A DNA stretch of 64,000 nucleotides. Origin: Xanthobacter sp. YC-JY1. Its GTDB lineage: Bacteria; Pseudomonadota; Alphaproteobacteria; Rhizobiales; Xanthobacteraceae. Made by a program: the position numbers and the translations under genes. The notes beneath the pieces were generated by a model, which was not told the origin of the DNA, did not search any database, and saw only the letters and a list, made by a program, of their open reading frames with translations. This document shows, in pieces, positions 12,252 to 24,698 of this stretch (position 1 is its first letter; each line of letters starts with the position of its first letter). Location of the stretch: the NCBI RefSeq assembly GCF_021730305.1, contig NZ_CP032674.1:5212001-5276000 (forward strand), in the 5' to 3' direction.

Positions 12252-13298
12252 TCAGCGGGCGCGGCGCACCGCCTCGACGAACTTTTCCACATGCTCCAGC
12301 GGCGTTTCCGGCCGGATGCCGTGGCCGAGGTTGAAGATGTGGCGCACGCCGTCGAAATCGGCGCGGATGCGGTCCACCTCCTCCTCCAGCGCCGCCCCGC
12401 CGGCGATCAGCCGCAGCGGGTCGAGATTGCCCTGAAGCGCCACGGTGTCGGAGAGCCGCTGCCGCGCCGCGCGGCGGTCGGCGGACCAGTCCAGGCCAAT
12501 GGCGTCGATGCCGGCGTCCGAGATCGCTTCCAGCGCCTCGAGGGTCGCACCCTTCGGGAAGGCGATGATCCGGACATAGGGATGCTTCGCCTTGAGCCCC
12601 GCGACGATGCGGCGCAGGGGTTCGGCGCACCAGCGCTCGAACGAGGCCGGGTCCAGAACCCCCGCCCAGGTGTCGAAGATCTGCACCGCGTCGGCGCCGG
12701 CTTCCACCTGCCCCGACAGATGGGTGATGGAAGCTTCCACCAGCCGGTCGATCAGCTCCTGGAACAGCTCCGGCTCGCGCAAGGCGAGGAGGCGCGCCGG
12801 CGCCTGATCGTCCGTTCCCTGCCCCGCCACCATGTAGGTCGCCACCGTCCACGGCGCGCCGCAGAAACCGATCAGCGCCGTCTCGGCGGGGAGCTGCGCC
12901 CGCACGTCGGCGATCGCCTCGTAGACCGGACCGACCTTGGCGGGATCGAGCGTGTGCGACAGGGCAGACAACGCAGCGCGATCCGCCACCGGGGTCAGGC
13001 GCGGACCTTCGCCGGCCTCGAACCTCAGGCCCGTGCCGAGCGCATGGGGAATGACGAGGATGTCCGAGAAGATGATGGCCGCGTCAAAACCGTAGCGGCG
13101 GATGGGCTGGAGTGTCACCTCGGCGGCAAGGCTTGGCGTGTAGCACAGGGTCAGGAAGTCGCCGGCCTGCGCCCGGACGGCGCGGTACTCCGGCAGATAG
13201 CGTCCGGCCTGACGCATCATCCAGAGCGGAGGTGGGTCCTGGACCGTGCCGTCGAGAACCGAGAGGAAGCGCGATCGCGTGGCTGGAGAGCGGTCCAT
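12252..13298 (-). CDS. hemE: Uroporphyrinogen decarboxylase
   Basis: HemE converts uroporphyrinogen III to coproporphyrinogen III in heme synthesis. 348 residues. The N-terminal signature [17 protein letters not shown] carries the active-site arginines, and FSDILV and [13 protein letters not shown] follow at normal positions. Start ATG 13298 faces the intergenic region that I read as the replication origin. hemE next to the origin is the arrangement known from Caulobacter and Sinorhizobium. Confidence 0.97.
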
Positions 13299-13351
13299 CC
13301 CGTCCCTTCAATCAAAGAGAGATATTTTTAAATGAGAGAGTCTTTGTTGTC

Positions 13352-13367
13352 TTAACGGTTGATTAAC
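13352..13367 (+). promoter_or_regulatory. CtrA box 1 (TTAA-N7-TTAAC)
   Basis: TTAACGGTTGATTAAC is an exact match to the CtrA consensus. CtrA blocks origin firing by binding such sites in the Caulobacter origin. Confidence 0.75.
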
Positions 13368-13455
13368 CAGTTGCCGGCTCGTCGACAACCGATCCACAGC
13401 CGAACCCATAGCCGACATGCGACTTGCCGCGAATGCGAAGCCGGCGAAAGGCCGG

Positions 13456-13471
13456 TTAACAAAGGATTAAC
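13456..13471 (+). promoter_or_regulatory. CtrA box 2 (TTAA-N7-TTAAC)
   Basis: TTAACAAAGGATTAAC is a second exact CtrA consensus, 104 bases from the first and in the same orientation. Confidence 0.75.
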
Positions 13472-13559
13472 GCACCCCCTGCGGAAACCCGTCCACATCG
13501 ACGCACAGGGCGGGACTGGAATCTCTCCCGTAGGGTGATCGTGTGGATGGATTTTGGAC

Positions 13560-13568
13560 TTATCCAGA
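13560..13568 (+). promoter_or_regulatory. DnaA-box-like 9-mer TTATCCAGA
   Basis: One mismatch from TTATCCACA. It lies 75 bases before the GTG start of the PPDK-regulator gene and next to a minus-strand 7/9 box. Confidence 0.5.
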
Positions 13569-13634
13569 GGCCGCCCTTGCAAGGGGCCAAAGCGCGTGCC
13601 TTCCTCAACAGCCTTCCACAGGAGCGGTGGACAA

Positions 13635-14489
13635 GTGACTCAGTCGAAGCCGAGCGAGGCCTATTTCCACCTCCACCTCGTGTCGGACGCCACGGGCGAA
13701 ACCCTGATCAACGTTGGCCGGGCGGCCAGTGCGCAATATGCGAACGTGCTGCCCATCGAACACGTCTATCCGCTGGTTCGTTCCATGAAGCAGCTGGAGC
13801 GGGTGCTGATCGAGGTGGAGGCCAATCCCGGCATCGTCCTGTTCACCCTGGTGGACAAGGACATCCGCGGCCGCTTGCGCTCGCGTTGCGAAGAGCTGGG
13901 TCTGCCGCATCTCTCGGTGATGGCGCCGGTGGTGCGGCTGTTCCAGTCCTATCTCGGTGGGGAGCCGACGCCGCGCGTGGGTGGCCAGCACGCGCTGGAT
14001 GCGAGCTATTTCAAGCGCATCGACGCCCTCAACTTCACTGTCATGCATGACGACGGGCATCTCACCGAAGACCTCGAGCATGCCGACGTGGTGCTGCTCG
14101 GCGTGTCGCGCACGTCCAAGACGCCGACCTCCATCTATCTCGCAAATCGCGGGATCAAGGCGGCGAACATTCCCCTCGTGCCCAACGTCCCGCTGCCGCC
14201 GAACATCGAGAAACTGAAGAAGCCGCTGGTGGTGGGCCTTGTCGCCAGCCCGGAGCGCATCGTCGAGATCCGCCAGAACCGGCTGCTGGGGCTCAATGCC
14301 GTGGAGACGGGATCATCCACCTATACGGACCGTGAGGCGGTTTCCGAGGAGCTGGCCTTCTCCCGCCGGCTGTGCGCGCGCAACGGATGGCCGCTCATCG
14401 ATGTCACGCGCCGCTCCATTGAGGAAACAGCGGCCAACATCCTCAGCCTCTACAGCGACCACCGCCGCCGCTCCATCGCTGAAACCTGA
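13635..14489 (+). CDS. Pyruvate,phosphate dikinase regulatory protein (DUF299 kinase/phosphorylase)
   Basis: This bifunctional family phosphorylates, with ADP, and dephosphorylates PPDK or PEP synthetase. 284 residues from GTG 13635, beginning [20 protein letters not shown], the family N-terminus; the ADP-binding P-loop is [11 protein letters not shown]. An ATG at 13554 would add 27 residues unlike the family and would overlap the origin motifs. A GGAG lies 11 bases before the GTG. It corresponds to Rickettsia RP001, the gene flanking the Caulobacter origin. The dikinase itself is not in the window. Confidence 0.92.
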
Positions 14490-21071: not shown

Positions 21072-21087
21072 TGTTTCACGTGAAACA
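21072..21087. other. parS centromere site 1
   Basis: TGTTTCACGTGAAACA, an exact 16-bp match to the bacterial parS consensus and a perfect palindrome, between mnmE and mnmG. It is the loading site for the ParB encoded 3.6 kb away, and lies about 7.7 kb from the candidate oriC. Confidence 0.93.
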
Positions 21088-23080: not shown

Positions 23081-23737
23081 ATGAAGGGGACTGGCGCGGG
23101 AGGCGACGACGCGACGCGTGCAACGGTCGAGGGGCTGGTTTCACGTGAAACATTCCGCCGCCTCGACCTCATCGCCGAGCTGCTGCGCAAATGGCAGAAG
23201 ACCATCAATCTCGTTGCGCCCGCGACGCTGCCGGACGTTTGGAGCCGGCACATCGCTGATTCGCTGCAATTGATTAACCATGTTCCGGCGGACGTCGCGC
23301 GGTGGGTGGATCTGGGGTCCGGCGGCGGATTCCCCGGTCTGGTGATTGCCGCCGTTCTGGCGGAGCGGCCGGGCGCGGATGTCCATCTTGTGGAGAGCGA
23401 CACCCGCAAGTCCGCCTTCCTGCGCGAAGTGGCGCGGGTTGCGGAGCTGCCGGTGCGGGTCCACGCCCAGCGAATCGAGCTGGTTGCGCAGACACTTGCG
23501 CCGGGAATGCAGGTGGTGTCCGCGCGTGCGCTGGCGCCTCTCCCCAAACTTCTGGAGCTGGCCGAGCCGTTCCTCTCGGCCGGTGCGCTCGGGGTGTTTC
23601 CCAAGGGCCGCGACGCCGAACGCGAATTGACCGAAGCCCGTAAAGGCTGGACACTCGATTGCGATCTTCGCGCCAGCGTCAGCGACCGAGAGGCGCGGGT
23701 TCTTCTCGTGAGGAGCGCAAGGCGCAGCAGCAAATAG
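23081..23737 (+). CDS. rsmG: 16S rRNA (guanine(527)-N7)-methyltransferase
   Basis: 218 residues. SAM site [16 protein letters not shown], and the downstream [18 protein letters not shown] and [12 protein letters not shown] blocks identify RsmG (GidB). ATG 23081 chosen; it follows mnmG by 43 bases. The codons for VSRETF contain a second parS site, so this stretch is under double constraint: protein and ParB binding. Loss of RsmG gives low-level streptomycin resistance in other bacteria. Confidence 0.96.
23137..23152. other. parS centromere site 2, inside rsmG
   Basis: GGTTTCACGTGAAACA matches the parS consensus at 15 of 16 positions (first base differs). It encodes part of VSRETF of RsmG. Confidence 0.88.
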
Positions 23738-23843: not shown

Positions 23844-24698
23844 ATGAGCCAGGCTGATTATTCCTCGGGAGCCGATCTTTCCCTGTCGGCCGGCGCGCCG
23901 CGCGTGCTGGCGCTCGCCAACCAGAAGGGCGGCGTGGGCAAGACCACGACAGCGATCAATCTCGGCACCGCGCTGGCGGCCATCGGCGAGACCGTGTTGG
24001 TGGTGGACCTCGACCCCCAGGGCAACGCCTCCACGGGCCTCGGCATCGATCGCCGCTCCCGCAACGTTTCCACCTACGACGTGCTGGTGGGTGAAGCCAC
24101 CATGCGTGAGACGGTGATGCCGACCGGGGTTCCGCAGCTCTATGTGGCGCCCTCCACCCTCGATCTGTCCGGGCTGGAGCTGGAGATCGCCGCCGAGCGC
24201 GATCGCGCCTATCGCCTGCGCGACGCCCTCCGGGCACTCGCGGCCGATCCCGAGGCGCCGCGCTTTTCCTATGTGCTGGTGGACTGCCCCCCGTCCCTGT
24301 CGCTCCTCACCGTCAACGCCATGGCGGCGGCGGACGCGATCGTGGTGCCGCTGCAGTGCGAGTTCTTCGCGCTGGAAGGCCTCTCTCAGCTGATGAAGAC
24401 CGTGGAGCAGGTGCGGGTGGGTCTGAACCCTAGCCTCACCATCCACGGCATCGTGCTGACCATGTATGACGGGCGCAACAACCTGTCTGAGCAGGTGGTG
24501 CAGGACGTGCGGCAGTTCATGGGGGACAAGGTCTATGAGACCATCATTCCCCGGAACGTGCGCGTCTCGGAAGCACCCTCCTATGGCAAGCCGGTTCTGC
24601 TATACGATCTCAAGTGCTTGGGGTCACAGGCTTATTTGCGGCTCGCGTCGGAGGTGATCCAGCGCGAGCGTGCGGCACGGGCGGCGGCAGCGGCCTGA
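23844..24698 (+). CDS. parA: Chromosome partitioning ATPase ParA
   Basis: 284 residues. The deviant Walker A motif ALANQKGGVGKTTTAINLG with its signature lysine, VDLDPQGNASTGLGID (switch region) and YVLVDCPPSLSLLT are those of chromosomal ParA/Soj. ParA forms ATP-dependent gradients on the nucleoid that pull ParB-parS complexes. Overlaps nothing; parB starts 27 bases after its stop. Confidence 0.97.
   Translation: MSQADYSSGADLSLSAGAPRVLALANQKGGVGKTTTAINLGTALAAIGETVLVVDLDPQGNASTGLGIDRRSRNVSTYDVLVGEATMRETVMPTGVPQLYVAPSTLDLSGLELEIAAERDRAYRLRDALRALAADPEAPRFSYVLVDCPPSLSLLTVNAMAAADAIVVPLQCEFFALEGLSQLMKTVEQVRVGLNPSLTIHGIVLTMYDGRNNLSEQVVQDVRQFMGDKVYETIIPRNVRVSEAPSYGKPVLLYDLKCLGSQAYLRLASEVIQRERAARAAAAA

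Follow-up and report, generated by a model that had tools for sequence, protein, structure and literature searches.

Does the 336-bp gap between hemE and a gene of the PF03618 family hold the chromosomal replication origin (oriC) of this bacterium, and do the CtrA boxes within the gap bear on replication? The gap lies in a 64,000-bp window, the whole stretch of DNA analysed here, which corresponds to bases 5,212,001-5,276,000 of one 5,392,410-bp contig. The gap and its borders are as follows, in window coordinates.

12252-13298, minus strand: hemE (uroporphyrinogen decarboxylase), left border; Pfam PF01208, E 5.7e-121
13299-13634, no strand: predicted oriC, the intergenic gap between the divergent hemE and PF03618 genes
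13635-14489, plus strand: Kinase-PPPase gene (PF03618, DUF299/COG1806/RP001 type), right border; Pfam E 1.9e-89

The PF01208 and PF03618 matches confirm the divergent hemE and DUF299 genes that the initial annotation had placed on either side of a 336-bp gap. The start of the Kinase-PPPase gene was taken to be GTG, and an in-frame TTG upstream at 13554 is possible. Divergent hemE and COG1806/DUF299 genes are the borders expected of an alphaproteobacterial hemE-type oriC. The hemE gap is described as the known origin in Caulobacter and a predicted one in Rickettsia in the available part of one study (PMC1914354); this location is already known for the alphaproteobacteria and is ordinary. The switch of prevailing gene direction noted earlier stands in so far as the nameable genes are mostly on the minus strand to the left and on the plus strand to the right of the gap, as judged by eye and without a count.

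Strand composition was followed through 480 kb of contiguous sequence and in twenty 20-kb samples (the one at 5.13 Mb overlaps a masked run). In the contiguous sequence, cumulative GC skew is lowest 31 kb to the left of the gap, at 5,194,701, and the minimum for GGGNAGGG, an E. coli strand-bias word, falls at 5,237,447-5,241,189, 12-16 kb right of it. The two minima bracket the gap, being off it by at most 0.6% of the chromosome and not exactly at it; a skew minimum far away had been named beforehand as evidence against an origin here. The GGGNAGGG counts are 52 plus versus 4 minus in nine samples at 0.27-2.43 Mb, 10 plus versus 32 minus in ten samples at 2.70-5.13 Mb, and 1 plus versus 3 minus in the sample at the record start. 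These counts flip between 2.43 and 2.70 Mb and an opposite switch therefore lies near there; the point opposite the gap on the chromosome is at 2.53 Mb. There is more noise in the raw GC skew, where the samples at 3.78, 4.05 and 4.32 Mb are opposite in sign to their side. A one-switch model (word bias of 0.85, set by hand) has its best point at 5,241,000, and positions from 5,234,000 to 5,247,000 fit to within 5 log units of it, which places the switch 9-22 kb to the right of the gap; the gap is 10 log units worse than this point and dnaA is 23 worse. Because the best point is off the gap and only 77 of 113 GGGNAGGG words agree with a switch at the gap, the strand signals locate a region and not a base. 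A low-G+C bin considered as an island was rejected, as 7,500 bases are masked at 5,142,501-5,150,000; these masked bases, perhaps an rRNA operon, distort composition plots.

Origins adjacent to dnaA are common in bacteria, and noisy strand signals with a best point off the gap would also fit a true origin elsewhere, for example by dnaA, which spans the record start 166 kb from the gap. However, dnaA fits the one-switch model about 12 log units worse than the gap, and its surroundings contain no DnaA-box cluster, only 4 sites of two or fewer mismatches, scattered over 5.5 kb. The gap, on the other hand, has parS and parA beside it. We take TGTTNCACGTGNAACA to be the parS consensus.

21072-21087, no strand: parS, perfect match to TGTTNCACGTGNAACA, 7.4 kb right of the gap
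23137-23152, no strand: parS with 1 mismatch, 9.5 kb right of the gap, by parA
23844-24698, plus strand: parA-type ATPase, Pfam PF13614, E 9e-56

No parS word was found in the 18 far samples, and one more parS-like word, two mismatches from the consensus, lies at 5,331,802, 106 kb from the gap. An origin elsewhere is most improbable, and the gap is very probably the chromosomal oriC. The proposal of the initial annotation is thus supported by the border genes, the bracketing strand-bias minima, parS and parA 7-10 kb away, and a dnaA region that is free of a box cluster.

The features within the gap are listed below.

13307-13356, no strand: AT-richest 50 bp (72% AT), presumed unwinding element; equally rich are 0.03% of 50-bp windows in 480 kb
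13338-13342, no strand: GANTC (CcrM-type site) within AGAGTCTTTG, in the AT-rich part by hemE
13352-13366, no strand: predicted CtrA box 1, TTAACGGTTGATTAA, exact TTAA-N7-TTAA, at the edge of the AT-rich part; 15/15 identical in the nearest relative (L021)
13390-13398, plus strand: DnaA-like box CGATCCACA, 2 mismatches
13456-13470, no strand: predicted CtrA box 2, TTAACAAAGGATTAA, exact TTAA-N7-TTAA, mid-gap; inexact in L021 (3/8 core bases aligned)
13519-13523, no strand: second GANTC site
13542-13550, minus strand: DnaA-like box CCATCCACA, 2 mismatches
13560-13568, plus strand: DnaA-like box TTATCCAGA, 1 mismatch (8/9), the best of four
13626-13634, minus strand: DnaA-like box TTGTCCACC, 2 mismatches

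The AT-rich patch reported earlier is borne out and lies beside hemE; by composition it is the AT-rich element of a hemE-type oriC, its unwinding being presumed. The DnaA-like 9-mers were scored against TTATCCACA with a threshold of two mismatches. Four of the five claimed were found, the best matching 8/9 as claimed, and the fifth was not found at that threshold. All four are weak; at least four such 9-mers occur in 0.11% of 336-bp windows (480 kb scanned), and since two other places in the 480 kb hold four and five, the DnaA-like boxes alone are not unique to the gap. A DnaA-like cluster near 5,058,500 was rejected as a candidate, as it lies in an AT-rich spacer that follows a gene resembling an efflux pump (by eye) and does not coincide with a strand-bias minimum. 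Two one-mismatch IHF sites that overlap the CtrA boxes in the gap were judged to be chance matches.

An exact-word scan recovered both of the CtrA boxes noted earlier, with starts 104 bp apart. The exact word occurs 11 times in the whole 5,392,410-bp contig (the reversed control word, 21 times), and the expectation for the gap is 0.0007 against 2 observed, with a probability of two or more of about 2e-7; TTAA-N7-TTAA sites above chance are a mark of the CtrA-controlled kind of origin. A crude ORF rule places three of the nine words outside the gap in intergenic DNA, and no known CtrA regulon was recognised among the nine. One of the exact words, at 1,455,104 (L274), is 43 bp before the ORF of a 360-aa HisKA-HATPase histidine kinase, a possible CtrA target. 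The genome encodes a ctrA ortholog (1,974,071-1,974,742) whose product shares 83% identity with a CtrA sequence of Caulobacter, and ctrA is also present in 113 of the 121 genomes of the order. At the ctrA locus (L279), the antisense frame is open and has matches at E <=1e-50 in 97 of the 121 order genomes, many of them with stops, an example of how antisense frames of conserved G+C-rich genes can look conserved. Here and in the copies from L021 and L117, box 1 is part of an element GGTTGATT; in L061, L067 and L076 this element reads ACGGTTGATTGGACTC or nearly so and lacks the outer TTAA. This comparison suggests that few substitutions could create CtrA boxes.

We compared the gap with those of relatives. 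Searches with the PF03618 gene matched 104 of 121 genomes in the order and 274 of 389 in the class. From the order, 90 of the 104 loci were read; the remaining 14 (two at contig edges, the rest the weakest or split matches) were omitted, and the order set therefore leans to closer relatives. The class set comprises 60 loci, one or two per family, hand-chosen among the matches listed, and a scan for hemE in named genomes gave at least 80 loci. Usable divergent gaps number 86 in the order set and, among the matches listed, 56 in the class set and 57 in the named set; four order and four class loci lacking hemE, and 23 named loci lacking the PF03618 gene (among the matches listed), were dropped. 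In a tree of HemE and PF03618 proteins, a split with 0.995 support separates the 86 order gaps, together with 49 of 57 named loci, from the 56 class gaps, which are joined by the other 8 named loci (class and named loci among the matches listed); the split was chosen for the best separation of order and class, and it misplaced no row. The 49 named loci are labelled as Rhizobiales groups or only as Alphaproteobacteria. The eight comprise five Sphingomonadales/Sphingomonadaceae/Sphingopyxis, one Parvibaculaceae and two assemblies labelled Rhodobiaceae, whose labels clash with their side of the tree, as NCBI places the Rhodobiaceae in the Hyphomicrobiales. The tip nearest to the window organism is Rhizobiales bacterium 24-66-13 (L021) and the third nearest is Ancylobacter (Hyphomicrobiales, Xanthobacteraceae); from these positions and its side of the tree, its order is Rhizobiales/Hyphomicrobiales.

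With spacers of 0-24 scanned, the exact box at spacer 7 is found in 32 of 86 order gaps and in 18 of 41 families, and the next best spacer, 17, in 7 of 86. Spacer 17 forms a small second peak, about one helical turn beyond spacer 7. When the 49 named relatives are added (among the matches listed), 40 of 135 gaps have the box at spacer 7 and at most 6 have the pair at any other spacer of 0-15. The order gaps contain 37 sites, compared with 0.255 expected from the word density of each genome. The signal is weaker outside the order, where 8 of 64 gaps have the exact box at spacer 7 and at most 2 at other spacers, and the excess at spacer 7 disappears with one mismatch (18 of 64, against 3-18 at other spacers; both counts among the matches listed). 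Among the matches listed, the box occurs at spacer 7 in 8 of 56 class gaps and 8 of 57 named gaps, with other spacers in at most 3, and the sites number 9 against 1.1 in shuffles for the class and 9 against 0.2 for the named set.

These boxes could instead be an artefact of AT-rich composition, with CtrA not binding them. The gaps are AT-richer than their genomes, and with one mismatch allowed a TTAA pair appears at other spacings in 17-39 of the 135 gaps; at spacer 7 it appears in 69 (named loci among the matches listed). Composition does not account for the sharpness of the exact peak at spacer 7, nor for the 41-fold excess in the order over dinucleotide shuffles (37 sites against 0.9). The core is also kept more than its surroundings: mean within-family identity is 75% for the eight core bases, 58% for the spacer, 50% for the flanks and 49% for the whole gap, a somewhat flattering figure for the core because the 62 ordered comparisons count pairs both ways, cover box-bearing families only and put L021 in its own family by choice, and because the aligner may favour matching words. 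In family f146, the core is identical at 8/8 bases and the spacer at 2-4 of 7. We consider a purely compositional origin of the boxes very unlikely.

Box presence requires 21 parsimony changes on the tree, compared with a mean of 34.4 and a minimum of 28 in 500 shuffles, a pattern that indicates that the predicted CtrA box at the origin is heritable and often gained or lost. It is absent in its exact form from 54 of 86 order gaps although 113 of the 121 order genomes have ctrA, and CtrA boxes are therefore dispensable for oriC. Among the matches listed, the box is present in 2 of 13 class gaps whose genomes lack a CtrA ortholog and in 6 of 43 whose genomes have one (status read by hand and checked), a control that offers no support for a CtrA role and is slightly against it. 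Only 1 of 23 named loci picked by label as Rhizobium-, Mesorhizobium- or Ochrobactrum-like has a box (among the matches listed), and the loci of these genera are not united in a box-free clade on the tree. The new part here is the predicted CtrA boxes at this origin and their commonness in the order; CtrA sites at origins of Rhizobiales/Hyphomicrobiales were unreported in the titles and abstract openings among the matches listed, a scope that mostly leaves aside the subscription literature.

CtrA, a protein that acts as a cell-cycle switch, is mainly a transcription factor and a gap between divergent genes must house both promoters, and the boxes could thus serve only the promoter of hemE or that of the PF03618 gene within a genuine oriC. 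The sequence of intact gaps cannot separate a promoter role from a replication role, but loci where the two genes are apart are informative. In 20 of the 23 named loci without a PF03618 gene beside hemE, the 500 bp upstream of hemE contain at most two DnaA-like sites, and none of the 20 has a box; the other three keep a DnaA cluster, and two of them have a box (all among the matches listed). The 20 loci are mostly from Bradyrhizobium and kin and are therefore not independent, so that the comparison, which draws mostly on one lineage, speaks against the boxes having hemE as their target. For the PF03618 gene, one of the eight loci without hemE has two boxes, together with 4 DnaA-like sites, whereas four others have 3-7 DnaA-like sites and no box. 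The boxes also tend to be mid-gap, with 24 of 46 located between 40% and 60% of the gap length. We regard a promoter role alone as unlikely.

Several relatives' loci are of interest in their own right. L023-L039 and L041, from Bradyrhizobium and its relatives, showed no PF03618 gene next to hemE. Within 500 bp upstream of hemE they have two DnaA-like sites at most, lack a CtrA box and contain GANTC rarely or not at all; the oriC of these bacteria probably has different borders. In L108 and L110, from the family of the window organism, there is no hemE by the PF03618 gene, yet 6-7 DnaA-like sites are present there.

The hemE-side quarter of the order gaps is rich in GANTC, with 132 sites compared with 47.6 in shuffles, the top of 16 palindromic pentamers, and 70 of 86 gaps have at least one compared with 36.7 in shuffles. 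Among the matches listed, the same quarter has 114 sites against 31.1 in the named set (46 of 57 gaps) and 56 against 27.9 in the class set (34 of 56 gaps). GANTC is also raised in the other three quarters (125 against 79.6 in the class, 105 against 73.6 in the named set), where it is the first word in these two sets and outside the top five in the order (class and named gaps among the matches listed); because of this, the order shows the clearest hemE-side concentration. AGNCT, the control palindrome, is also elevated, and over whole order gaps more so than GANTC (1.78 versus 1.59), since both words are contained in AGANTCT; a longer AT-rich motif may account for part of the GANTC signal. For Caulobacter and closely related species, the presence of several GANTC motifs in the origin has already been published, according to the available part of PMC3973325; the addition here is the concentration of these predicted CcrM sites in the AT-rich end across this order. 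In hemE-proximal parts of class gaps, for example L222 (and more loosely L211, L224 and L265), a trinucleotide-like run GTAGTTGTTGTAGTTG stands shortly before a DnaA box CTGTGGATAACGGGGAT. This run resembles the DnaA-trio unwinding module, in a G/T-rich form. Many Rhizobiales gaps have an apparent counterpart, GANTC-bearing AGANTCTT words followed by GTTGG-type runs.

How might the predicted boxes act? Only 3 of 44 boxes in the order and named Rhizobiales (among the matches listed) lie within 20 bp of a DnaA-like core, compared with 38% of random positions, and CtrA sites overlapping or abutting DnaA boxes are thus not the rule here; this avoidance is partly trivial because the two words cannot overlap. 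Simple competition between CtrA and DnaA for one site is therefore not the obvious mechanism. By analogy with known origins, DnaA would assemble on the weak boxes at 13390-13634 and open the AT-rich stretch by hemE. Phosphorylated CtrA may bind both boxes and hinder the DnaA complex, as extrapolated from Caulobacter, perhaps by separating the part with the DnaA sites from the AT-rich end instead of competing for a site, and initiation would then be withheld in some cells or conditions. Once replicated, the GANTC in the AT-rich part would be in a hemi-methylated state, which could serve to mark an origin that has just fired.

Taken together, the reading of the gap as the oriC of a Rhizobiales/Hyphomicrobiales bacterium at which CtrA is predicted to act is, on these sequence comparisons, a probable one. 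More tentatively, and with real room for doubt, predicted CtrA control of oriC may be widespread and old in the Rhizobiales/Hyphomicrobiales, with predicted CcrM sites in the unwinding element and CtrA sites lost from the lineages of the model rhizobia, on which the opposite conclusion was based; the loss in those lineages is a guess. The presence of the exact-site signal in 18 of 41 families makes a CtrA switch at the origin testable in ordinary free-living strains, and box-carrying and box-lacking sister families could tell gain from loss of the switch. The CtrA-box signal is also a sharper means of calling oriC in this order.

Sinorhizobium meliloti, like the window organism a member of the Hyphomicrobiales, and Brucella abortus reportedly have a hemE-side chromosomal origin. 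Unlike the gap described here with its two boxes, the S. meliloti origin is described as having neither CtrA motifs nor CtrA binding in the accessible portion of PMC4433202, and B. abortus CtrA is cited as not binding the origin in an excerpt of PMC2877005. A review, in the part available, states that CtrA boxes were not seen in such origins, which contrasts with their commonness in this order. The predicted origins of the Rickettsia/Wolbachia group, as given in the available text of PMC1914354, share the hemE border and predicted CtrA, DnaA and IHF sites; these are AT-rich intracellular bacteria, CtrA sites are few or absent in several of them, and the second border gene in Wolbachia, Ehrlichia and Anaplasma is other than the one here. 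In Hyphomonas neptunium, from another order (Hyphomonadales), a CtrA ChIP-seq peak by ori is reported in the portion seen of PMC7200025, so that the association is measured there and predicted here. The closest parallel in layout is the Cori of Caulobacter crescentus, which in the available parts of PMC1914354 and PMC4468827 has hemE-COG1806 borders, TTAA-N7-TTAA sites, an AT-rich part and weak DnaA sites, and in that of PMC3973325 GANTC sites, all as here. In the same partial accounts, Cori, from a different order, has five footprinted CtrA sites compared with the two exact predicted boxes here, and its CtrA sites are near or overlap DnaA sites, with competition proposed, whereas in this order the boxes keep away from them. 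When CtrA binding was removed from the Caulobacter origin, the normal cycle was mildly perturbed and the binding mattered under stress, according to the available section of PMC4468827.
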